Source: Salminus brasiliensis (lineage: Eukaryota; Chordata; Actinopteri; Characiformes; Bryconidae). Taken from it: a DNA stretch of 64,000 nucleotides. The stretch is from the NCBI RefSeq assembly GCF_030463535.1, contig NC_132881.1, positions 3,199,526 through 3,263,525 of the forward strand, read 5' to 3'. A program made the translations under genes and the position numbers. A model generated the notes under the pieces. That model made no database searches and had not been told where the DNA came from. It saw only the letters and a list, made by a program, of their open reading frames with translations. Positions 4,883 through 61,790 of the stretch are shown in pieces. Every line of letters begins with the position of its first letter. Position 1 is the stretch's first letter.

Positions 4883-5104
4883 CTAGTGCTGAGAATTCTG
4901 CACTTGTCCCGTCGGCGCCTTCCCATTGCTCTCCTCCTCTTCATCGTCGTCGTCTTCCTCCTCTTCCTCGCTGACGATGAATTCCTTTGGAGGCCAGCGC
5001 AGCTCTCCGCTCTCCACCTCGCCGTCCGTAGGCTCCACCACGATTGATGGAAGGCGGTCCTTCACTTTGCAGCAGCGCTCGAAATCCGAAGGGTCTGGAA
5101 AGAT
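4883..5104 (-). CDS. lbh: lbh coding exon 3 (terminal)
   Basis: The acceptor is CTCTGCAG|ATCTTTCC. It encodes residues 45-117 and a TAG stop. It contains the most conserved LBH block (KDRLPSIVVEPT, GELRWPP) and an acidic run of five Glu, four Asp and four Glu encoded by a GAG/GAC-rich stretch. Confidence 0.95.
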   Translation of the reverse strand: MFPDPSDFERCCKVKDRLPSIVVEPTDGEVESGELRWPPKEFIVSEEEEEDDDDEEEESNGKAPTGQVQNSQH

Positions 5105-8100
5105 CTGCAGAGGAAGCGAAGAAGATCGAAGGTTAACATGGGATCATCTTCAAGGATCAGCCAACAAGCAAAAGTAAAAGCGCACATTCCACCAATTAGC
5201 CATTAGCTGCCTCAAACCATTGGAGTCGTGGGGTAATCTCAAATAGACAAATGCTCATGTGGTTTCTGACTCCCTGAAGTGGCACAAACTGAATCCTGGA
5301 ACCCTGTCCTAGTCTGTTTAGCACTCCTGTAAGTGCTTGTGGTTTCACTAACATGTGCGAGTGGGATTGTTTTTTTGTTTTTTCAGGCCTGGTCGGGTCA
5401 AGTCTCGAAGTCAGGGGCTTTGGCTTAATTCCTATGCATAACTGTTGACACCATGCCCTTCATCGGGACATCGCAGGTTTAATCCTTGGTAATGCCACAG
5501 CCGACTATGGCTGGGAGTCTAAGTGAGCATGAATGTCCCCCAAAAGACATAATTCTTCACTTGACACCCATTACACAGTCTGCTAGCTAGCGAAAATTGG
5601 CAAGAAAATTGGCTGGTGGCTGGTAGCTTTGCATAATTGGGTGACTAACAGGGTATTGACCCAGACAGCATTCCATCAATGACCAAAGGAGAAAAAGGAC
5701 AGCGAAAGAGAGAAGGACAGATGAAGACACAAGGAGACAGAGGAAACGCAGAAGGGACATGGACATAGAGACACAAGATACACCATATTACTCTAAGAGA
5801 GATAACTACAGAGACAGAAAGACCAAAAGACCGCAATAGAGACAGAGGGACAGAAAGAGACTTCTAGGAAAAGAGAGAGGGAAAGACTGAAACAGAAGAG
5901 GAGACAGAAGAAGAGACAGACGATAAAGACAATGGGACATGTGGAGACCAAAGAAATGAGGTTGACCGAGGTTAACAGAGAGGGAGACAAAGACATGGAG
6001 ACTGAGGAACAGAAAGAGACAGAAGATAAGAAAGGGACAGGCAGACATGTAGACATAAATGAGGAGAGAGGCAGACAGATAGGGACGAAAAGAGATCGGG
6101 AAATGTAGGGACAGAAGAAAAAGGGGTGGAGAGAGGAACAGGGAATGAGAGCAGGACATACAGAGACAAAGGAACAGAGAAAGGGACATATAGAGACAGG
6201 AAGACAGAGAAGGTGCGATGTGGTACAAAAAAAGGTTCAGCAGGAAGCAGTGTGTGTGTGTGTGTGTCCCGTGTCTGTCTGGCGCAGCAAGCAGTAAAAG
6301 CTGATAAATCCCCCCCCCTCCCTCCCCAACCCGACTCGACTCGACTCAACAGAGGCAGTGGCACAGCTGTGGTGTTGGCGGCGGCAACAACAACAAAAAA
6401 AAAAGCTGCAAGGAGGCCTGGGACTGACAACACTCTGCATCTCTCCTGCACACACACATACAGGACTGAAAGGAAGACTGCAGGGGCTCGTCCAAAATAG
6501 AGCCCACCAAGGACGCTGCTTTGTACGAGATAGGACACATAATTAATCAAACAAAGAGCCAGAGACCAATAAGGAGAAACGAACACTAGTCCTATCCAGC
6601 GTACAGGGGTGTAGTCTGTGGTGCCGAGCAGGTAGACATGTCAATGCCTCCTTCTGTGTCCGTTTATCCCGCTGTCTCCAGCTGTCCCCCTCTCTTCTCC
6701 TTTGTTCATGTGTCTCTTTCTGTCCCCAGTCAAATCCAGTATACAGTGACGCAGTTGATTAGCGCTAGGCCTAATCAAAACCCTGTCCAAATCCCACCCC
6801 TATGACCATGCTAATTTCTGCTTGACCCCTCTGCCCTCCCTGTGGGCTGGTAGTATTCTTTTAGTATGAGCATCGACCCCCCTCTGCGTGGTTGTCCTAT
6901 GGCATTGGTCAAAGAGCTCCTTTATTCAGGCCCAGGAGCAAGAGCTGACTATCCCTTTATACATCCCAGATGATGTCAGCGCTAACCCTTACCTGGGATA
7001 TACTGGGGGTTAAGACCCTGGAAGGAGGTGGTACGTCATGGTACGTTTACGTGAGGTACCCTTAAACTTTCTTCTCATCATGGGTTTGGATCTTCTGGAT
7101 TTGGGAAACCCACCCCCCCCTCTCCAACTTCTCTTAAAAAAGCTGAACTGCTTCTCAATACGGTCCAGGCTGGCCAGGTTCAGGGTCCAGGTCACCACAA
7201 TTCACTGGGTTTAGAAAGCCCTTGGTGATTTGTAGATTGTGACGCGGTGCAAGCTGACATTATGGGACGAAAGGTTTATACTGTCCAACTTTTAGAGCCT
7301 TCATGGTTGAGGCTAGCTCTGGTGCACATGGGTGTGTTTGGAAGGTCTGGATTAAACAGATTAGCAGCTTGGGTGATACCTTAAGACAGAGCTCCTGCCA
7401 GTTTTCACCCCTTCAACAACAAGACTGAATACGAGTGAAGATCTAGCCAGGTTCCGGTCAGTGGCTGGATTTCCATTCGGGAGAGCCAAAAAAAAAAAAA
7501 TAGTCCTGTGCCGTTTCCTGTGGCCCTACCGGCAGCTGGCGTGGTACTGAACACTAGCGCCGCGATAGCTGCAACACTGGATGTGTAGAACGCTAACACC
7601 GTGGAACGCTAACATCACTACACTTTTTAAACTTTCTGGACCCGAAGATGGTTCTGTACTAAAATGGTTGAAGTGGTTGTATTTATCAATAAAATCTATT
7701 TAAAAAGATTCCCTTGAAAGATACATTATAAGGACAAAAGTATTGGGACACCTGCTCATTCATTATTATTTTTTGCAAAATCGAGGGCATTTATCCTGCT
7801 TTTGCTGGAGTAATTCTCAAAAGAGAGGCTTTCTGCTAGATTTTGGAGGAGGGTTACTGTGAGGGTTTGATTGCATTCAGCAGAAAGAGCTAGTGTTTGT
7901 GAGGTCAGGATTTTGGAAGATCACCACTCGTGGACGGATACTCATTGAAGAACTTGCTTTTTTTTCTTAATTAAATGTTCAGACCTCTTTTTATCTTTTA
8001 CTTGGACCCAAGATGAATCAGTCTCCAAGAAACAAAGTCCTAAACTTTGCCCAAACTTTTCCTTTCCCTCCGATTCCTCCTCTCGGGCCCGTTGATTAAT

Positions 8101-26386: not shown

Positions 26387-26566
26387 ATCCACACCCAGTT
26401 AATTGTAATACTCTCTCACACACAAATACACAGACACACACACACACACACCATTAATACACACTTACAGTCTCTTGTAATAAATGCAATGCCCCCCCCC
26501 CCCACACACACACACCACCTCCCTCTCCTCCCACCCACCTAAGCCTGACGTCTGTCCTGTTGTTGT

Positions 26567-26572
26567 TATAAA
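26567..26572 (+). promoter_or_regulatory. TATA box of light-chain V1
   Basis: TATAAA lies 55 bp upstream of the V1 ATG, as expected for a short Ig V 5' UTR. Confidence 0.55.
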
Positions 26573-26626: not shown

Positions 26627-26672
26627 ATGATGGCCTTCAGCTCTGCCGCTGGACTCCTGCTCACGCTGACCG
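26627..26672 (+). CDS. V1 leader exon
   Basis: Encodes MMAFSSAAGLLLTLT and one base of a split glycine: a short hydrophobic signal peptide. The donor is CCG|GTAAGACC. A second ATG immediately follows the first, so initiation could be at either. Confidence 0.85.
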
Positions 26673-29076
26673 GTAAGACCACCTCATTATAGACTTTACA
26701 ACACAATACACTCTGACCCCACTGAGATACCCCACCAGAAACGTCCCACCATTGATCCAAGTGCTATCTAGAACCTTTTTTATTACATCATTAATAACAC
26801 TCATGTCCATCAGGTCTGTCGGCATACTCCCTGGACCAGGAGAAGTCCAAATCAGTGACCCTGAAGAGCACGGTGAAGATTCTCTGCACTGCAGAAGATG
26901 ATAACTATTACATTTCATGGTACCAGCAGAAGGCTGGTGGTGCTCCTCAGTTTCTGCTGCGAAACGACGTTAGAGCCGATGGACTGCCCAGCAGATTTAC
27001 CTACACTGACTCAGGCAACCAGGACTATCTGAACATCAATGGAATCGAGGCTGAGGACGAAGCCGTCTACTACTGTGCTACTAAGCCGTCTACAGTCCAC
27101 AGTGCTGCAGTCCAGTGAGGCCCTCGTACAAAAACCTTCTAGGTTGACTGGAGCTTCTACAAATCTATATGATCACCGGCTTCTGCCAAGCAGGGTCTCA
27201 GAACCAATGACCGATGGCCTCGACATCAAGATCACCTGGAATCTGCTCATTTTCTCCTGTTCAGCTGGTAGGAATTCTGCATTCCAGAGTCACGGGGCCT
27301 CCAGATTCAGCAGCAGATTCAGCCTTCAGCACTAAGGTTTATGTACGGCCTTCTAACACTGTGAGGAGAAAGCACATTTGGTCAAGGCACCACAGTTGGT
27401 AAGTAAAACCTTTGATAGGACTTATCTATTAGCTAATCACTGTGTTTTACTGAATATCTGGTAAAGAGCAAAAGCAAAAATAATAATTAATAATGTATTT
27501 ATAAATTATTTATGTCATCCACCTTCTCAGAAATAATGGAAATTCTCTCAAACTCCCCATAAGTTACTATCCTATTTAACCTTTCTTAGATATGCTCACT
27601 CTGTTGACTTGTGATCTTTCCAAATGTTTGTATAAATCCACGGTTCGATATTACGAACACAAGCATTAAGCCTCTTACATCTCAGTGCACCTAAAGATGC
27701 AGTGTGTATACTTTAATAATCTTTGGACACAAATTCAAAGGTTTTTAATGATTAAAGTTATTAATAATTAGTGCTGTTTTAAACAGACTGATAACTAATG
27801 AAGTGTAGATACTCTTATATGTTATTTAGTTACACTATTTAGATTTTATTTTAATTATATTTCTAACATTAAATACTTTAAATTCTGTCTATTTACAACA
27901 ATCTTTGGCATGTTCTTTGCATTAAGATTTAATTTAAGCTTTTAAAAACTTCATTCACTTCATCTATAACTATACATTACATTTGAATTTTAGTAAACCT
28001 AATTCAAAATTTTAGTTTTACCGTAGCTTCATTCTGGATTTTAATTGTATAACTTCAGTTTTTACTACTATTAGATTTAGATTACTATTTTCTAACTTTC
28101 TAACTAATTTTTACTTTTATTCTAACTTCATTTTGGATTTAAAATTTAGTGAAGCTCTTTTCTAATTTTTAGTTTTACTGTAGCTTCATTGTGTAATTTT
28201 GCTAATTGCTTGCTAGTTTTAACATAATTAAATTTCATTCTGAATTTTTATTCCAGTAAATCTCTACTATAATTTTAGCTTAAATATAAGTTCAGTCTAG
28301 TTTAAGTTTTATTATATAACTTATTTTTTTAATATAATGTCATTCTGGATTTGAATTTTAGTAAATCTTATTCTAGATTGTAGTTTTACTGTAGCTTCAC
28401 TGTGTAATTTTGCTATTACTTCAGTCTGGATTAAACTCTTTCCTTAAACCTTAATTTTTTTTATTTTAATTTTAAAACTACATTCAGAGGTTTACTATAA
28501 CATCATTTTGGATTTGAATTTTACTATAACTTAATCCTACATTTTACTATAACTTGAATCTATTAATATCAAATTTTACTCATTAAAGCTTAATTGTGGA
28601 TGTATACATTTTATAGTAATAAAATTCTCAAAATCTCATTATAACAAGCTGCATGTCTCCATGGTGGCGTGAATAATTTACTGTTTTCTGACCCTTCAGT
28701 GAACTTCTGTTCTTCTGGTCATTTTTCTCTTTATCCAGTGATCTCTAATCATCCAGCAACTCCTCCATCACTGGCCCTGCTGGCCCCCTCCCAGTCCGTC
28801 TCCTCTGGAGATGAGGTCAGTGTGGTCTGTTTGGCACGGGGCTTCCACCCTGACAGCGCTACCCTGTCCTGGGCTGAGGATGGCAGCACTGTGGCGGGTC
28901 CCGAGGTACAAACCGGGCCGTCCCAGCGCCAGGCCGATGGCACCCTCTCCCAGAGCAGCGTCCTGAAGCTGAGTGCCGGACGCTGGAGCTCTGGCCACAC
29001 ATTCGCCTGCCGTGTGACCCATCCTGCACTGAGCAGCCCCCTGACCGAGAGCGTCAGTGCGGGACAGTGCAGCTAG
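26627..29076 (+). CDS. Immunoglobulin light-chain lambda-type cassette 1 (V-J-C, germline)
   Basis: A complete germline light-chain unit. It has leader 26627-26672, V 26814-27097, a 23-RSS, a 12-RSS, J 27364-27398 and C 28739-29076, all on the plus strand and all in compatible phase (1-2). After V-J joining and splicing it would give one light chain that pairs with heavy chain on B cells and in secreted antibody. The V-23/J-12 spacer pattern is that of lambda loci; kappa and sigma use 12 on V and 23 on J. V and J lie only about 200 bp apart. Every diagnostic residue and signal is intact, so the cassette looks functional. No additional V was found near it. Confidence 0.9.
26814..27097 (+). CDS. 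V1 light-chain variable exon (V-lambda)
   Basis: The acceptor is CCATCAG|GTCTG. It encodes the end of the leader and the V domain: first cysteine in KILC, ISWYQQK with the core Trp, FLLRNDVRADGLPSRFTYTD in framework 3, and AEDEAVYYC with the second cysteine, then germline CDR3 residues ATKPST. The segment stops directly at a heptamer. Length and motifs are those of an intact functional V-lambda. It shares QEKS, SWYQQK, GLPSRFTYTD, YLNING and AEDEAVYYC with V2. Confidence 0.93.
27098..27136 (+). other. V1 recombination signal, 23-bp spacer
   Basis: Heptamer CACAGTG (27098-27104), a 23-bp spacer, then nonamer ACAAAAACC (27128-27136). Both motifs are consensus. The spacer length places V1 in the lambda class. 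Confidence 0.95.
27336..27363 (+). other. J1 recombination signal, 12-bp spacer
   Basis: Nonamer complement GGTTTATGT (27336-27344, one mismatch to GGTTTTTGT), a 12-bp spacer, then heptamer complement CACTGTG (27357-27363). It forms a legal 12/23 pair with the V1 signal only 199 bp away. Confidence 0.92.
27364..27398 (+). CDS. J1 joining segment
   Basis: Encodes GESTFGQGTTV and one base of the next codon, with the canonical FGXGT beta-bulge motif. The donor is GTTG|GTAAGT. The phase-1 end matches the two leading bases of the C1 exon. Confidence 0.93.
27399..28738 (+). other. J1-C1 intron with degenerate AT-rich repeats
   Basis: A 1.34-kb intron. From about 27.85 to 28.63 kb it contains many diverged copies of a motif series resembling TTCATTCTGGATTT, AATTTTAGTAAATCT and TTTTACTGTAGCTTCA. 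The same series reappears at about 29.82-30.05 kb, on the far side of C1. Confidence 0.6.
28739..29076 (+). CDS. C1 light-chain constant exon (C-lambda)
   Basis: The acceptor is TTTATCCAG|TGATC and the stop is TAG at 29074-29076; 111 residues. It is a C1-set Ig domain with the first cysteine in VSVVC, tryptophan in LSWAEDG, and the second cysteine in FACRVTHP. A penultimate cysteine in GQCS is the inter-chain disulfide to heavy chain. A second in-phase acceptor, CATCCAG|CAACT at 28756/28757, would shorten the exon by six codons and align its start with the homologous part of C2. Confidence 0.95.
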
Positions 29077-29218
29077 AGTGGTCACGTGCTCATATCCATT
29101 AAACATACCATGCTAATGCTAACACAGCTAGCTATATAGTGATATATATATATATATTCAATGAGCTAAGCTAAGCTAAGCTAAGTGTACTACTATTGTT
29201 CTGCTTTTTGTTTTGCTG

Positions 29219-29224
29219 AATAAA
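29219..29224 (+). terminator. Poly(A) signal of cassette 1
   Basis: AATAAA 143 bp downstream of the C1 stop, in GCTGAATAAAATTTC. Confidence 0.6.
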
Positions 29225-31277
29225 ATTTCTGTTGTCACACTTGAGTCCTGTATTTTAAATGGTTTCCTTGTGTAGAATGGGTGTTTTGAGGCTTTCAGGT
29301 GGTCAGGTATTTATATTCAACCCACAGTCACTCTGGTCACTCCGGTCATCCGCACTACAGCACACTGTCCAAGTAATGTGAGGCTCAATGAGGACATTTA
29401 CTTCATTTTTTATGCTAAATAAACCATCCCTGCTAGAGATGTTTAGTTATCAGAAAGTTACGTGAACATTCTGAACGTAATGACTTTCGTTTGTAGAATG
29501 TTTCCTACAATTGTTCTCACAATTGAATTTGGGCTTTTTACATTTAATAGGCAAATTTTAAAAGATAATGGAAATTTAGCCCTTCAGCTTTTTTATTATC
29601 AGTGCAAATTCAAAAAATGTTTAATTCTATGTTAAATAAATGTTAGAATTCTTAAGTTTGGATAATATTTTATGACACATTCACCAAATATAATTTATCA
29701 GTGTGGGTTATCAGTTTTAGCATTAATGTATTTCTAGTGTTGGGAAAATTACTTCAGATGTTTTTAGATTTAGATGTGTCTAGATTACTACTTTTACTTG
29801 AACCTTTTTCATTTTTAATTTTATCACAACTTCATTTTGTATTTAAATATAAGGAAATCTTATTCTAGATTTTAGTTTGACTAAACCTTCAGTAAAGATT
29901 AAAATTTGTACTCTAACTTAATTTCTAGTTTTATTCTAACTTCACTTTGGATTTTAATTTTAGTTCATTCTTTCTAATTTTTAGTTTTACTGTGTAATTT
30001 TGCTAGTTGCTTTGCTAGTTTACATAATTTAATTTTAACTATTCTTCTACTGCACATAAAAGTGGTTCATTGGAAAAAACAGTTATGCTTGAAGCAGTTG
30101 AAGGTCAAAGGGAAAGATGATGGACGTCTGCCTGAGGTGGAGGTACATGTATCTTAGTGTAATTTGGTAGAACAATGTGTGAAAGTGTGCAGTAAGAAAA
30201 TGTAACTGTACACATTTCACTATACACATTAGAAAAAATGTCCAAGTGAATACATTTCTGGTCAACAGCAGTGCTGTGGTCAGATTCTGACCAATGATAA
30301 ATGGTGTGGGGAGGCAGGGATTGATAAATTAAGCATTATGCTAATTAAACATGTGATCTACATTCAGTAATTGAATGGTTCAACTGCAAACGCCATTTTC
30401 ATAAATATTATTCAATTCATGACTTTTTTCATGTTTACTTCCTCTGAAAGTTTTCCCTTTTCCTGTATTGTTGTCATTTTAGATATACAATGTTTTTAAG
30501 GGCAGCACAATAAGTGGTTTTATTACATTTTATAAGTCACCAACAACCAGAACGAGTGTAAATGAACAGATTAAACAGAAGTTTAGGGAACAAAACTGTG
30601 TAACGGAGCAAAAAGTGGAGCTTCTGGAAGTACTGGAAGTGAATGGTAGAACAAAGCAAGAGTTTCTAATGGGTAAAATGGGTAATTAACCACTATCCAA
30701 TAAAATAAATCCAGTTAGGCTGCAAATAAATGTCTAAAATGATTCACAGCTTTTAAATAATTATTAAACTAAATAAATTAAATGAAATAGCTTAAATAAA
30801 TGTCATATAAATATAATATGACTCTAAAAGACATTTTAATGAATATCCAAAATTACCTTTGATTGAGTCTTAAACGATTAAATAAGTAAATAGGACAATG
30901 TGTTAAATTGTTGCTGGTTACTAAGTTTGTTTAAAATTTTACAGTAGAAGTTAAAAATGTCCTTAACTTTTAATGTAAGTTAAAAAAACAACAACATTAA
31001 TTTCAAGTAATTTTGGAGCATGTATATTGGTATATCTGTAAATAACAGATGTATTTTAATAATGTAGAAAAGTAAAACAACAACAACAACAAAAACAATG
31101 GTAATTAATTGGATCATTATTGTACATATTCTCATAAGAAATATTACTATGTCAAATAATTACAAACTTTTGAACAGTGCTTCACTGGCAGCAGTGCAGT
31201 TGATTCACATCTGGCTGATATGAATTCAGAACTGAGTGCTATTAAAATGAGTTTCATTTAGAGCCCCGAGACGTCAG

Positions 31278-31285
31278 ATTTGCAT
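31278..31285 (-). promoter_or_regulatory. Octamer complement ATTTGCAT upstream of V2
   Basis: A perfect ATTTGCAT about 950 bp upstream of the V2 start codon. This is too far for a classical V promoter octamer; it could belong to an enhancer or be a chance match. Confidence 0.25.
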
Positions 31286-32021
31286 GCGTTTTCTGTTCCT
31301 GTTCTGGTTTCCTCTAACGGATGACTCGTCATGGTTGACTTTTCATTGTAGTTGCTGAGTTTCAAAAAAGAAGAGCATATCTAGATCTAGATATATACAC
31401 ATGCTCCATACCTACTTATATGTATAAGTGTTGTATAAATCTTGAAATATCTACAGATTCCCCACAGTTGTAAATAGTGGAAGAAATGGTAAACTAATCA
31501 TCAGTGTAAGTTCTTATGTACGCAACCTTTAATCGTCAAGAGCATACTCTGATGTAGAACGAATATTTATTAGAATTGCATTTAATGCATTGCAGAATTA
31601 ACTTAAAAACTATATACTTAAAACCATTTGAATCTGTCAGAATTTCATGATAAATTGACCAATAAAACACATAGGTCCCATTCACTTTTTTGAAATTAAA
31701 TTGTTGAAAGTTAATAAGTTTTTTTTATTATTATTATTTATTTATTTTATTTTTTAGAGATATGAGTTTGGAGATAACTTCACTTATGCTTTACTTTACT
31801 TTCTTCATAAAAGTCCATCAACACATTTTACTACATAAGAAAATTTCTCTCAGTTTCACTAATTTTATTACTCATATACATGTATATACATTTATATATA
31901 AATTTATAATATAAATTTCACTCAGAAGAGACATCAATACAAATTTTACTACATAATAATTAATATAAGTTAATATTCCACATAATAACTTGCAAAACTC
32001 AATAGTTTTTTGCATGACAGT

Positions 32022-32022
<1 letters not shown>

Positions 32023-32059
<37 letters not shown>
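32023..32059. repeat. (AT)n microsatellite
   Basis: About 37 bp of AT, 170 bp upstream of V2. Confidence 0.95.
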
Positions 32060-32064
<5 letters not shown>

Positions 32065-32161
32065 AAGAGAGATATAAATATTTTACAAATTCAGTTGACT
32101 GTAGATTGCACTCGCCTGTGGGTTTGTAGGTGGAGTCATGTGACTGAATGTCTTGGTTCTC

Positions 32162-32169
32162 TTTATAAG
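32162..32169 (+). promoter_or_regulatory. TATA-like box of light-chain V2
   Basis: TTTATAAG about 62 bp upstream of the V2 ATG. No perfect octamer lies immediately upstream. Confidence 0.4.
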
Positions 32170-32230
32170 AAGCATCTGAAAGCACGTCTCTCATTTCTGA
32201 TCCTCTGCTGGTCCTACAGTTCTCAAAACT

Positions 32231-32285
32231 ATGATCCTCAAACCGACATCTCTTGCTGGACTCCTGCTCCTGCTCACTCTCTCTG
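32231..32285 (+). CDS. V2 leader exon
   Basis: Encodes MILKPTSLAGLLLLLTLS and one base of a split glycine, a strongly hydrophobic signal peptide. The donor is TCTG|GTAAGAAG. Confidence 0.88.
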
Positions 32286-34219
32286 GTAAGAAGAATATCT
32301 ATAGAATAAGTCTATAAACTCAGATTCTGTGAATTACACCCCATAAGCAGCTCATTACCGCACTGACTGCACTGAATTCTCTGCTGAAGGATGAACTCTG
32401 TTAATGTAACACTATATTCTCTTGTGTGTTTTACAGGTTTGGAGGCCATAGTGCATCTGACCCAGGAGAAATCCATTGAGTTCACTGTGGGCCAGAACGT
32501 CCAAATTCTCTGTAAAAGAGATGATAGCGGTAGCTGGAAAATATCATGGTACCAGCAAAAGCCTGAAGATGCTCCTAAATTCCTGCTTGCTGATAGCAAC
32601 AGGGCCAGTGGGCTTCCCAGCAGATTCACATACACAGACAATGGAGTGAATGAATATCTGAACATCAACGGAGCTCAGGCTGAAGATGAGGCCGTGTACT
32701 ACTGTGGCTGCATCATCTGTCAGTCTCATCACAGTGCTCCAGCTCAATGAGACACCTGTACAAAAACCTCCAGAGTGTCATGACAGGACCAGGGCCTCTC
32801 TGATTAAGCCCAATAGCCTAATTTCTAGTGAGCATGAGCTAGATCATGAGTTCCCCATGATTTTCCTTATTCCTTATGATCATTTCCTCCTGATTAGTCT
32901 GTGTTAAAGCCAGCATCATGAGCACCCAGGCGACCAGGGTAAGCAGAAGTCGGGGGCTGCATGGCTGAGGTTTTTGTAAAGCACTGTGACACCGTGGCAT
33001 GGCAGCATTGGAGCAGGAACCGAGTTAAGGCTCGGTAAGTGCTTTTTGTTATTGCTATAACTGAAATTCATAATTTTGAACCAAACCTAAATTTTACTTC
33101 TTCAAAATCAACCTAAACTAATTAAGGATCTGTAGAGTGGTCAGTTTTATTTCATGGAAATGTGTAATTTAGCGTATGAATATACAGTTCAGAAACATTT
33201 TTTAAGGTGAAATAAAATAAAAATTCCTTTCATTTATTTATATATTTAAATTTTGCCCCAATTTGTTTTTGTATCTGTTGAACCTGGAAATCATAAGTTT
33301 AGTGTGTTGAAGTCGAGTGGCCAGAATAGAAATATAAAAACTGACATATTTAAAAATAATGTTTTTTTCCCCTAATTAATAAAGGAATCAAGCAATTTAT
33401 AAGTAAAATTTAAGTAGTCAGTGACACAAAATAATGTATCTCCGAAATGGGAAAACCTTCTTCACTTAATTTATTCTATTTTATAAAACGTGAAACAAAT
33501 AAGATTTTTAACAATATTCAAACAGGTATTTGTATTAATAACATTATTATTTAAAAAAAAAATTTAAAACACCCCTTTTTTAGGCTAGTGATCAATTTTT
33601 AGTTTTTCATATATTTTTAATAAAGAATTTTTATGTTTTTTAAATAAAAGAAGCATGTTTAATGAAAGCTCTTATTGTCATTCATAGGCTTAGAAAGCAA
33701 GATAAAACTATATATTGATGTTTATCTTCTCTCAATATTGTTAAAATTGTAGATCAAATGTCCATACATTCATATAAGAAAATACATTTCAAGGGGTGTC
33801 CTAATATTTCCCACAGAACTGTATATAGTTAAATGATTTTACTGAACTTCAATAATATTAAAGACCAAAAAAATCTTTCCCTTACTGTAGCTCGCCCGGC
33901 AACTCCTCCATCACTGGCCCTGCTGGCCCCCTCCCAGTCTGTGCCCTCTGGAGATGAGGTCAGTGTGGTCTGTGTGGCACGGGGCTTCCACCCTGATAGT
34001 GCCACCCTGTCCTGGGCTGAGGACGGCAGCTCTGTGGCGGGTCCTGAGGTCCAGACAGGACCATCCCAGCGCCAGGCCGACGGCACCGTCTCCCAAAGCA
34101 GCGTCCTGAAGCTGAATGCCGGACGCTGGAGCTCCGGCCACACGTTCGCCTGCCGTGTGACCCATCCTGCACTGAGCAGCCCCCTGACCGAGAGCGTCAG
34201 TGCAGGACAGTGCAGCTAA
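32231..34219 (+). CDS. Immunoglobulin light-chain lambda-type cassette 2 (V-J-C, germline)
   Basis: A second complete unit: leader 32231-32285, V 32437-32729, 23-RSS, 12-RSS, J 32998-33035 and C 33891-34219, in the same orientation and the same compatible phases as cassette 1. It shows three departures from the norm. The germline CDR3 carries two additional cysteines (YYCGCIICQSH). The J motif reads IGAG instead of FGXG. The J heptamer is CACCGTG. No frameshift or stop interrupts it, so expression is possible, but rearrangement efficiency and folding may be altered. Confidence 0.88.
32437..32729 (+). CDS. V2 light-chain variable exon (V-lambda)
   Basis: The acceptor is TTTTACAG|GTTTG. It encodes a V domain with the first cysteine in QILC, ISWYQQKPEDAPKFLL, GLPSRFTYTDNG and AEDEAVYYC, then germline CDR3 GCIICQSH ending at the heptamer. 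All framework landmarks are intact. It differs from V1 mainly in CDR1, CDR2, the framework 1 start and CDR3. Confidence 0.93.
32730..32768 (+). other. V2 recombination signal, 23-bp spacer
   Basis: Heptamer CACAGTG (32730-32736), a 23-bp spacer, then nonamer ACAAAAACC (32760-32768). Fully consensus. Confidence 0.95.
32970..32997 (+). other. J2 recombination signal, 12-bp spacer, variant heptamer
   Basis: Perfect nonamer complement GGTTTTTGT (32970-32978), a 12-bp spacer, then CACCGTG (32991-32997), which differs from CACTGTG at one position. The spacer itself contains a consensus CACTGTG at 32983-32989, only four bases from the nonamer. Confidence 0.82.
32998..33035 (+). CDS. J2 joining segment with Ile for Phe
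   Basis: In the frame that splices correctly to C2 it encodes HGSIGAGTELRL plus one base. The GXGT part is intact, but phenylalanine of FGXG is isoleucine (ATT for TTT). The donor is CTCG|GTAAGT. Confidence 0.82.
33891..34219 (+). CDS. C2 light-chain constant exon (C-lambda)
   Basis: The acceptor is TTACTGTAG|CTCGCC and the stop is TAA at 34217-34219; 108 residues. It is a C1-set Ig domain with cysteines in VSVVC and FACRVTHP, tryptophan in LSWAEDG and the inter-chain cysteine in GQCS. It differs from C1 at only about six residues over the roughly 100 shared positions, including V for L after VVC and N for S in LKLNAG. Confidence 0.95.
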
Positions 34220-37542: not shown

Positions 37543-48985
<11,443 letters not shown>

Positions 48986-49309
48986 CCTGACCTCGGCCTT
49001 GAGGACCAGGTTGGGAAGAGCTGACGGTTGCTTTTTGGGGCAAAAACGTTTCAGTGGGTCGATCCAAGGTTTTAACCAAGACCGTAGGTAGGTAACCTTG
49101 CAGATGTCTGAGATAAAGATTATGGTCCACTTACTTTTAAAACCTTAAACTGTAAGGGTCCATGGGTCCACATTTCAGGTTCTGACCATTTTAACGATAT
49201 ACCTTACATGCTAAGTTAAGTGCCTGTACTGTCATTATACATATAGACTAGGACCAACTTAGAATAGCAGGGTCAGCAATGGTATGGTGCCCCTGGAGCA
49301 AAGAAGCCA

Positions 49310-53919: not shown

Positions 53920-55180
53920 AAAACCGCAATTATTCAGCATCTACTATGAACTGTACTTTAATATCTACTAATAATTAAACAGTAAATATTATTAACAGTT
54001 CAGTAGCTACATTATTCAGTAATTGCTTTGATTTATTTAGTAACTTCTACAAAGTATCTACTATTAATTTTTCAGCATTGAGTATAAATGATTCAGTTGG
54101 TATGAATTATTCCGATTTAGTAACCGCTATGGATTTTCCAGTATCCACAAGGAATTTCACAGTAACTACTTCATTATTTCAGCTATGAAATATTCTGTAT
54201 TTACTATGAATTATCAAATCAAATTTGTTTGTCACATCAAAAGTCAAACACAGTGCCACTAGCAATGAAATGCTTTGACAACTGCTTGTGCACAAGGAAA
54301 AGGAATAAAGAATTTATAAGTCAAATTATTCAGCATTCACTATGAAGTATTTAGTAAAAACTATGAATTATTCAGTATCTCCAATGAAATATTCAGTATC
54401 TACAATTAATTATTCAGAACCCGCTAGGAAATATTCAGCTTTACATAATTCAGTAACAGCTATGAACTTTTCAGTATCCACAATGAATTATTCACCAACA
54501 GTTATAAATAATTCAGTTTATATTGTGAATCATTCAGTAACAGCAATTAACAATTCAGTGTCAAGTATGAATTATTCAGTATATACTATGAATTACTCAG
54601 TATCCACTATAAATTATTCAGTATATACTATGAATTATTCAGTATCCACTGTAAATGATTCAGGATATACTATGAATTATTCAGTGTATACTATGAATTA
54701 TTCAGTATCCACTTTAAATTATTCAGTATATACTATGAATTACTCAGTATCCACTGTAAATGATTCAGGATATACTATGAATTATTCAGTGTATACTATG
54801 AATTATTCAGTATCCACTTTAAATTATTCAGTATATACTATGAATTATTCAGTATGCACTATGAAGTATTCAGTATGCACTATGAAGTATTCAGTATATA
54901 CTATGAATTATTCAGTATATACTATGAATTGTTCCATATGCACTATGAATTGTTCCGTATGCACTATAAATTATTCCGTATGCACTATGAATTATTCAGT
55001 ATATACTATGAATTATTCAGTATCCACTTTAAATTATTCAGTATATGCTATGAATTATTCAGTATATGCTATGAATTGTTCAGTATGCACTATGAATTAT
55101 TCAGTATCCACTATGAATTCTTCAGTATATACTGTGAATTATTCATTAACAGCTATAATTAATTGAGTATCTACTATGCA
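53920..55180. repeat. 21-bp minisatellite array (TATGAATTATTCAGTATMYAC)
   Basis: Some 45-50 copies of a 21-bp unit near TATGAATTATTCAGTATATAC. They are sharp from about 54340 to 55165 and degenerate before that. A unique insertion with ATTTGTTTGTCACATCAAAA occupies about 54210-54330. Because 21 is a multiple of three, a 274-codon frame stays open on the plus strand; it is a by-product. Confidence 0.93.
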
Positions 55181-57504: not shown

Positions 57505-58870
57505 TTACCTCAACCTCAACTTAACCTACTACACCTAAACCTAATTCTATGCTTCACCTAACCTACACCTTAACCTAAACATAATCGACTACACCTAAAC
57601 CTAAATCTACTAAACCTACTACACCTAAACCTAATTCTATCCTTCACCTAACCTACACCTCAACCTTAACTTAACCTACTACACCTAAACCTAATTCTAA
57701 CCTTCACCTAACCTACACCTCAACCTCAACTTAACCTACTACACCTAAACCTAATTCTAACCTTCACCTAACCTACACCTCAACCTCAACTTAACCTACT
57801 ACACCTAAACCTAATTCTAACCTTCACCTAACCTACACCTCAACCTTAACTTAACCTACTACACCTAAACCACACCTCAACCTAAACATAATCGACTACA
57901 CCTAAACCTAATTCTACTAAATCTATTAAACCTACTACACCTAAACCTAATTATATCCTTCACCTAACCCACACCTTAACCTAAACATAATCGACTACAC
58001 CTAAACCTAATTCTACTAAACCTACTAAACCTACTACACCTAAACCTAATTCTATCCTTCACCTAACCTACACCTCAACCTAAACATAATCGACTACACC
58101 TAAACCTAATTCTACTAAATCTACTAAACCTACTACACTTAAACCTAATTCTATTCTTCATCTAACCTACACCTCAACCTAATCCTACCCTATTACACCT
58201 AAACCTAATTCTAACCTTCCTTTAATCTAACTTTAACCTAATGTACACCTAAACCTAAACTTATCCTACTAAACCCAAACCCAACTTAACTTAACCTAGA
58301 CTTAACCTAACCTACACCCCAACCTAAACTTAAACTACTACACCTAAACCTAGTTCTACATTTTACCTAAACCTAAACATAGCCTATACTACACCTCAAT
58401 CTAACCCTAAACATAATCTACTACACCTAAACCTAATTTTATCCTTAACCTAACCCAAACTTAATGTAACCTACACCTCAAACTAACCCTACACCTAATC
58501 TACTAAACCTAAACCTAATTAGAACCTTAACTTAACCAAACCTACACCTCAAACTAACCCTAAACCTAATTAGAACCTAAACTTAACCTAACCTACACCT
58601 CAAACTAACCCTAAACTACACCTAAACCTAATTCTGACTTTAAACTAACCTAAACTTAACCTAACCTACACCTCAATTTAGTCCTAACATTAACCTGACT
58701 TTACCCCACCTACACCTCAACCTAAATCTAACCTAAACCTAACCTACTTCTAATGTTAACCCAACCTTAACTCATCAGCACCTCAACCCGAACATAAACT
58801 TAACCTAACCCTTACCTTAATCCAGGCAGTGTTATTGCCTAAACCTACACCTCAACCAAACCCAAACTTA
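57505..58870. repeat. 60-bp minisatellite of CCTAAAC/ACCTAA hexamers
   Basis: About 1.35 kb of hexamer-like CCTAAM, ACACCT and CAACCT units on the plus strand. From about 57660 to 57850 a 60-bp period is exact (AATTCTAACCTTCACCTAAC then CTACACCTCAACCT, CAACTTAACCTACTAC and ACCTAAACCT). Elsewhere it is degenerate with variant units such as AACATAATCGACTACACC. The composition resembles a mutated interstitial telomeric repeat. Confidence 0.92.
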
Positions 58871-60319: not shown

Positions 60320-61790
60320 AAGGATTATCTTATCTTAGGATTATCTTAGTATATTGTCCCATGGCCCTCAATATATTATCCCATTATTTTGTGGCCTCAA
60401 CATACTATCTCATGACCTCAGTACATTATCTCATGACCTCAATATTTTATCTAATAACATCATTAATATATTATCCCATGGCCTCATTATAGTACATAGT
60501 AGTCTCAATATATTGTCTTGTGGTTGGGGTTTTAATACTTTATCTCATAGTTGTGATCTCAGTGTATTATCTTGTGGCCTCAATATATTATTTCATAATC
60601 GCAATATATTACTAAATTAACCTCAGTATATTGTCTCATGCCCCTTGATATATTGTTCCATTATTTTGTGGCTGTTATATATTATCTCATGGCCTCAATA
60701 TATTATCTCATGGCCGTCAACATATTATCCCATTATTTTGTGGCCTCAACATACTATCTTATGACCTCAGTATATTATCTCATGACCTCAATATACTATC
60801 TCATGACCTCCATATTTTATCCAATAACATCATTATTATATTATCCCATGGCCTCATTATAATACCTTGTAGTCTCAATATATTATCTTGTGGTTGGGGC
60901 TTTAATACTTTATCTCATGGTTGTGATCTTAGTATATTATCTTGTGGCCTCAATATATCATCTCATGATCTCAATATATTACCTAATTAACCTCAGTATA
61001 TTGTCCCATGCCCCTTAATATGATGTTCCATTATTTTGTGGCTGTTATGTATTATCTCATGGCCTCAATATATTATCTCATGGCCGTCAACATATTATTC
61101 CATTATTTTGTGGCCATTAAATCTTACAGTTGTGGCCTCAACATACTATCTCGTGACCTCAATATTTTATCTAATAACATCATCATATTATCCCATGGCT
61201 TCATTATAGTACCTTGTGGTCTCAATATATTATCTTGTGGTTGTGGCTTTAATACATTATCTCATTTTTGTAGCCTCAATAGATTATTTATTGGCTTTAT
61301 TAGATTATCTTGTGGTCATAAAAAAGTTTAATTTGTTGCCTTAATATTGAACTCATGAACTCAATATATTATCTTATGGCAATATATTATTTTTTGACCT
61401 TAACATATTATCTTGTGACCCCAATACAGTATTTCATAATCTCTAAATATTATTTTGTTACCATAATATAGTATATCATAACCACATTATTATTTTGTGA
61501 CCATGATCTGTAATATAACATTCTCTGTATATTATCTTATGAATTCAATATATTGTCCTGTAGCCTCAATGCAGTGCCTTGACGCCTCAATATATTGCCC
61601 TGTAGTTGTCTCTTCAATATATCTTGTACATATCTTGTAGTTGTGGCTTTTAGATATTATATTATGGTTAGTTACATCAACATATTATCTTATGGCATCA
61701 ACAGATTATTTCTTGGCCTGAATAGATTATCTTGTGGCTGCTAGCAGCTTAATTTGTGGCCTCAATATGTGATATTGTGGTCACACCTTA
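60320..61790. repeat. 21-bp minisatellite with ~360-bp higher-order period
   Basis: The basic unit is close to CTCAATATATTATCTCATGGC. Variant units recur in the same order about every 360 bp: TATTATCCCATTATTTTGTGG at 60372, 60727 and 61094, and GTTGTGATCT at about 60550 and 60920. The pattern fades after about 61330. Confidence 0.9.

Follow-up and report, generated by a model that had tools for sequence, protein, structure and literature searches.

Two germline V-J-C light-chain clusters, very probably of the lambda-2 isotype, and a third unit on one chromosome of Salminus brasiliensis

Introduction

Two immunoglobulin light-chain units in a characiform fish raise the question of which light-chain class they belong to, and whether they are peculiar to their lineage. 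The window that we analysed is a stretch of 64,000 nucleotides of Salminus brasiliensis (contig NC_132881.1, called C4 below; C4:3199526-3263525 in a 1.066-Gb assembly). The initial annotation of this window proposed two lambda-type cassettes that could form a lineage-specific lambda locus. Lambda has been lost from most teleost lineages according to a review (PMC5192425). The isotype called 'lambda' in the teleosts catfish, cod and trout, which consists of one or two VJC clusters with lambda-like signals, has been renamed lambda-2; lambda-2 is also present in gar, and a CDR1 of 5-7 and a CDR2 of 2-3 residues are its mark (PMC5985310). As argued below, the two cassettes are very probably germline V-J-C clusters of this ray-finned-fish isotype, within a set of three on C4.

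Results

Anatomy of the two cassettes

Positions 26627-34219 hold two complete leader-V-J-C units, both on the plus strand. These coordinates, taken from the initial annotation, are exact, with the leader ATG of cassette 1 at 26627 and the stop codon of the second C exon ending at 34219. The claim of two complete units in the same orientation also holds; the V frames match V-set and the C frames match C1-set, both above the Pfam cut-off. Splice donors and acceptors were located in the sequence; exon ends were read partly, and splice phases wholly, by eye. The features are as follows.

26566-26571, plus strand: TATA-like box 61 bp upstream of the cassette 1 ATG
26627-26672, plus strand: leader exon 1, MMAFSSAAGLLLTLT..., donor G/GTAAG (exon ends after the first G)
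26814-27097, plus strand: V1 exon, V-set, open frame, CDR1 of 5 aa and CDR2 of 3 aa
27098-27136, plus strand: V1 recombination signal, CACAGTG-23-ACAAAAACC, 16/16
27336-27363, minus strand: J1 recombination signal, CACAGTG-12-ACATAAACC, 15/16
27364-27398, plus strand: J1, GESTFGQGTTV, donor G/GTAAGT (exon ends after the first G)
28739-29076, plus strand: C1 exon, C1-set, ends QCS
32231-32285, plus strand: leader exon 2, read by eye as MILKPTSLAGLLLLLTLS..., with donor G/GTAAGA (exon ends after the first G)
32437-32729, plus strand: V2 exon, V-set, CDR1 of 6 aa and CDR2 of 3 aa
32730-32768, plus strand: V2 recombination signal, CACAGTG-23-ACAAAAACC, 16/16
32969-32996, minus strand: J2 recombination signal, CACGGTG-12-ACAAAAACC, 15/16
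32997-33034, plus strand: J2, HGSIGAGTELRL, Ile in place of the J-Phe
33891-34219, plus strand: C2 exon, C1-set

Another in-phase acceptor follows 18 bp into the C1 exon; if it were used, the exon would start at 28757. The recombination signals had been described as perfect or near-perfect, which is a fair description of scores of 16, 16, 15 and 15 of 16; cassette 2 is not flawless, as the J2 heptamer carries one mismatch (CACGGTG) and the J2 motif reads IGAG, not FGxG. In 200 dinucleotide-shuffled windows, sites scoring 15-16 of 16 occur 0.01 times on average (maximum 1), and a chance origin of the four signals is rejected on this basis.

We then compared the signal layout with that of other light-chain genes in the genome, picking V segments by a regular expression over the window and 20 fetched stretches (light-chain and other C1-set arrays). 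Only three of the 22 picked segments carry 23-signals, and these are exactly the C4 units, including the third unit described below; the remaining 19 carry 12-signals. The pick missed 12-signal V segments in five stretches (L016, L017, L020, L022 and L030), and two weak V-flagged sites (L011:7112 and L026:6378), whose flanks have no V motif, are left uncounted. The J segments in the sampled stretches, tallied by hand, include 3 with 12-signals and 17 with 23-signals. A genome-wide scan found perfect 12-signals at 99 sites, versus 1 for the reversed pattern. Such a signal accompanies 74 of 113 V-like matches and is absent from the three C4 units and 36 others, among them matches in the C12:7.5 Mb, C9 and C10 regions, which are left unclassed.

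A third unit, copy number and neighbouring genes

Using the V2 protein as query, we obtained at least 113 matches in the genome (150 of 362 candidates scored). The best after V2 itself is at C4:6057991 (63% identity, E 2.7e-31), followed by V1 of the window (61%, 5.8e-26), and the next match past the C4 units falls to E 2.4e-12 at 43% identity. On C4, a C1-set family search (150 of 260 candidates scored) found the window's two exons and one at C4:6059800, so that the count of three units is a lower bound. The initial annotation had set these cassettes apart from any large light-chain array, and both searches agree with a small set of at least three units on C4, which is in line with the low gene number expected of lambda-2 (one or two, four in cod).

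The third unit, at about C4:6.058 Mb, has a leader, V, J and C, with signals of 16/16 on both sides and a J of the canonical FGGG type that reads YTVVFGGGTEVTT. A distance of 2.82 Mb separates its leader ATG from the end of cassette 2. The ATG is on the 3' side of an exon with a Pfam ZFYVE21_C match, at about 4.5 kb, and another ZFYVE21_C match and a FYVE match are found upstream. The name zfyve21 is taken from the Pfam family ZFYVE21_C; the PDB matches of the peptide are other FYVE proteins only.

The two cassettes of the window lie between the following exons.

4883-5143, minus strand: Lbh-domain exon, left neighbour (Pfam Lbh, 75 bits)
38774-39076, minus strand: SH2-domain exon, right neighbour (Pfam SH2, 52 bits)

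The cassettes had been placed between minus-strand genes lbh and sh2d4b. Pfam finds the Lbh and SH2 exons on that strand, while the name sh2d4b is provisional for the SH2 exon: the top PDB match of this exon is HSH2D, a different SH2 protein, and the minus-strand frames 46941-47267 and 48725-49144, taken for sh2d4b exons, matched no Pfam family. A full-text literature search for 'immunoglobulin light chain' with sh2d4b found nothing, a full-text search for light chain with zfyve21 gave, among the matches listed, only human plasma-cell neoplasms (unrelated by title), and literature searches for light-chain genes at such a location gave nothing useful among the matches listed.

Further to the right, the window contains long, imperfect tandem arrays at 54324-55178 and 60406-61265 (21- and 105-base units; a 370-base unit with a 21-base substructure), which also yield long repetitive open frames. 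About 1.2 kb of ACCTAA-like repeats at 57556-58746 somewhat resemble interstitial telomere-type sequence.

Assignment to the lambda-2 isotype

The term 'lambda-type' used in the initial annotation is justified by the V23/J12 signal layout, and within this type the units most likely belong to lambda-2, the 'lambda' of teleosts. This call rests on the signal layout, the CDR lengths, the copy number and the exclusion of other classes. In cod, lambda-2 has V23/J12, and kappa and sigma are reversed (PMC11223323); all three C4 units have V23/J12. Their CDR1 lengths (5, 6 and 6 aa in V1, V2 and the third unit) and CDR2 lengths (3, 3 and 3 aa) are inside the lambda-2 range, which is not exclusive, as they are also compatible with lambda, and 6/3 also with kappa.

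In the V tree the three C4 units form one clade (99/100), within which the V1-V2 pairing is weak (95/62); the deep forks are weak as well (44/98), with a long-branch warning. In the C tree the three C4 exons again form one clade (100/99, long-branch warning), and C1 is weakly paired with the C exon of the third unit, not with C2 (89/56), while identities in the alignment used are 93% between C1 and C2 and 76% between C1 and the third-unit C. Within this genome, the V and C clades thus stand apart from kappa and sigma. Both trees use human anchors. The V tree was built without three V segments of C5, which have no core Trp, and the C tree without the C1-set matches on C15 and at C2:51 Mb and one exon of contig C2 that crosses the end of its stretch.

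Teleost kappa and sigma likewise occur as small V-J-C clusters (PMC3014032, PMC11223323), and one might suspect that sigma (L2) or kappa clusters have been misread here as lambda. We find this hardly credible. Sigma would show V-12/J-23 with a CDR2 of 9-10 aa and kappa (L1/L3, F/G) would show V-12/J-23, but the C4 units have the reverse layout and a CDR2 of 3 aa, and both the V tree and the C tree separate them; both classes were rejected. The array at C12:26.1 Mb, by comparison, has V segments with a visibly long CDR2 and 12-signals, and fits sigma (cf. PMC5192425), although in the C tree the C exons of this array group with human lambda C (85/87). Sampled arrays on C1, C2 and C3 look kappa-like. 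PDB matches do not separate the isotypes, either for the V2 and C2 exons (best 60 of 6885 and best 60 of 10433 distinct sequences, respectively) or for the C exon of C5.

The C5 exon just mentioned belongs to a small cluster of light-chain genes that makes up a separate class (C5:21327222-21335128, L022) and has at least four V-like matches. Three of its V segments have 12-signals and no core Trp (MELYQ, MELYQ and MELFQ), and its J has a 23-signal. Identity between its C exon and the lambda-2 C exons is 32-36%, and the tree joins them (93/90, with a long-branch warning).

Another reading is that the units are orthologues of true lambda (that of tetrapods, shark and sturgeon) kept in this teleost. 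True lambda has an identical V23/J12 layout, its wide range of CDR lengths also includes those seen here, and by path the human lambda V segments are the nearest V rows outside the clade. We nevertheless consider this reading quite improbable. The C exons share 29-30% identity with human lambda C, which does not exceed the 29-35% that they share with human kappa C, and true lambda is held to be lost in teleosts (PMC5985310). True lambda is also linked to IFT81 in sterlet, as is its pseudogene in gar (PMC5985310), but the IFT81 domain in this genome is at C6:8.02 Mb and not on C4, which disfavours true lambda, although a loss of this linkage in teleosts may have had nothing to do with isotype.

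Exon evolution, promoters and the state of the cassettes

Between the two cassettes, the V exons have diverged far more than the C exons. C1 and C2 are 95% identical in protein over 106 aa and 93% identical in DNA (dS 0.24, dN 0.022), and the likeness extends about 50 bases beyond the stop codons and is lost at the upstream intron. Identity between V1 and V2 is 64%, with dS 1.6 (near saturation) and dN 0.35. Compared with the third unit, dS is 0.74 and 0.77 for the C exons and 3.4 for V1, and is not computable for V2. This pattern fits a C exon that was recently homogenised, through gene conversion or unequal exchange, next to V exons that form an older pair. GC-rich C exons may also change more slowly, which would add to the C1-C2 likeness.

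Around the promoter of cassette 2 we found the following features.

31278-31285, plus strand: octamer ATTTGCAT, with surroundings that by eye resemble those of the third-unit octamer (L011:7646)
31334-32100, no strand: AT-rich stretch of 760 bp, 24% GC, with two GTTGACT copies at its ends
32162-32169, plus strand: TATA box of cassette 2, TTTATAAG

TATA and octamer are conserved within isotypes in cod (PMC11223323). In cassette 2 the octamer and the TATA box are 884 bp apart, and the AT-rich stretch lies between them; in the third unit the octamer is 177 bp upstream of the ATG. By comparison with the third unit, 31334-32100 is a possible insertion that separated the octamer of cassette 2 from its TATA box. 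Among the five octamers in the window, none clearly resembling that of the third unit was found for cassette 1; the one 322 bp before V1, within a CA-rich stretch, may be due to chance. Since J2 has no J-Phe and a heptamer mismatch, the octamer of cassette 2 is distant and cassette 1 has none clearly like that of the third unit, expression of the cassettes may be weak.

These same features are what would be seen if the cassettes were decaying or unused, with intact exons and little or no rearrangement or expression, and if the third unit, with its flawless signals and canonical J, were the working copy. We regard this as unlikely, though worth keeping in mind. No stop or frameshift was seen in V or C of either cassette, TATA-like boxes, splice sites and polyA signals are retained, and the dN and dS values of both the C1-C2 and V1-V2 pairs fit purifying selection.

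Proposed rearrangement and use

If the cassettes are lambda-2 genes in use, RAG in a developing B cell would cleave next to a V at its 23-signal and next to a downstream J at its 12-signal, and joining would be by deletion. The possible deletional joins are V1-J1, V2-J2 and perhaps V1-J2, the last of which would remove C1 and V2. Splicing of the J to C1 or C2 would then yield a light chain that would pair with a heavy chain through its penultimate Cys. Rearrangement, expression and heavy-chain pairing are here predicted from the anatomy of the sequence. Permitted V-J joins are governed by the 12/23 rule, and because the layout of the C4 units is reversed, the rule keeps their V segments from joining the sampled kappa-like and sigma-like J segments. 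This would make lambda-2 a closed compartment that yields few, near-invariant light chains. The cod lambda-2 repertoire reportedly has fewer than 10 CDR3s (PMC11223323), and we likewise expect a small, nearly fixed light-chain set here.

Discussion

The lineage-specific reading put forward in the initial annotation is not supported as regards isotype, given that lambda-2 has been reported in catfish, cod, trout and gar and that a third unit lies elsewhere on C4. The C4 units add to a known isotype, a minor teleost light chain with few genes, at its usual low copy number, and the picture of light-chain isotypes is unchanged. Because lambda is reported lost from most teleost lineages and lambda-2 is already known from these four fishes, the presence of the units is informative but not new in kind. 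Less routine are the near-identical C exons beside diverged V exons, the 760-bp AT-rich stretch in the promoter of cassette 2 and the change of Phe to Ile in J2. The pair of clusters with its neighbours and the third unit by zfyve21 are markers for tracing the retention, movement and loss of lambda-2 across fish lineages, and offer a natural test of promoter spacing.

As a tentative scenario, which we consider less likely than not, the lambda-2 locus may have split in this lineage, with one copy staying by zfyve21 and a duplicate pair now between lbh and sh2d4b. Old differences between the V exons would have persisted as the C exons became homogenised, and the units would have become unequal through promoter change. 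From two sites on the chromosome, the closed V23/J12 compartment would then supply a handful of light chains that are almost innate-like.

Comparison with known systems

Zebrafish IgL genes have the same V-J-C cluster style, but the zebrafish VL and JL identified carry kappa-like signals (PMC3014032), and the available text of PMC5985310 lists no lambda-2 for zebrafish or carp. Sterlet IgL3 (true lambda) is likewise of this kind, a single V23/J12 VJC cluster described as without junctional variability; it differs in being linked to IFT81, which the C4 units are not (PMC5985310). The lambda-2 of spotted gar, on linkage group 1, is alike in being a VJC cluster with lambda-like signals, and differs in that one cluster is reported (PMC5985310). 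For cod, a newer assembly shows lambda-2 with four V, J and C genes, on chromosome 5 and within about 15 kb (PMC11223323), whereas the units of Salminus brasiliensis, at least three, share a chromosome but occupy two sites with 2.82 Mb between them. The closest likeness is to teleost Ig lambda or lambda-2 (IGIC4, Ig-iota-4), which shares V23/J12, few V-J-C clusters, short CDR1 and CDR2, and a position apart from kappa and sigma (PMC5985310, PMC11223323), and from which the present locus differs in that the promoter of cassette 2 looks interrupted.
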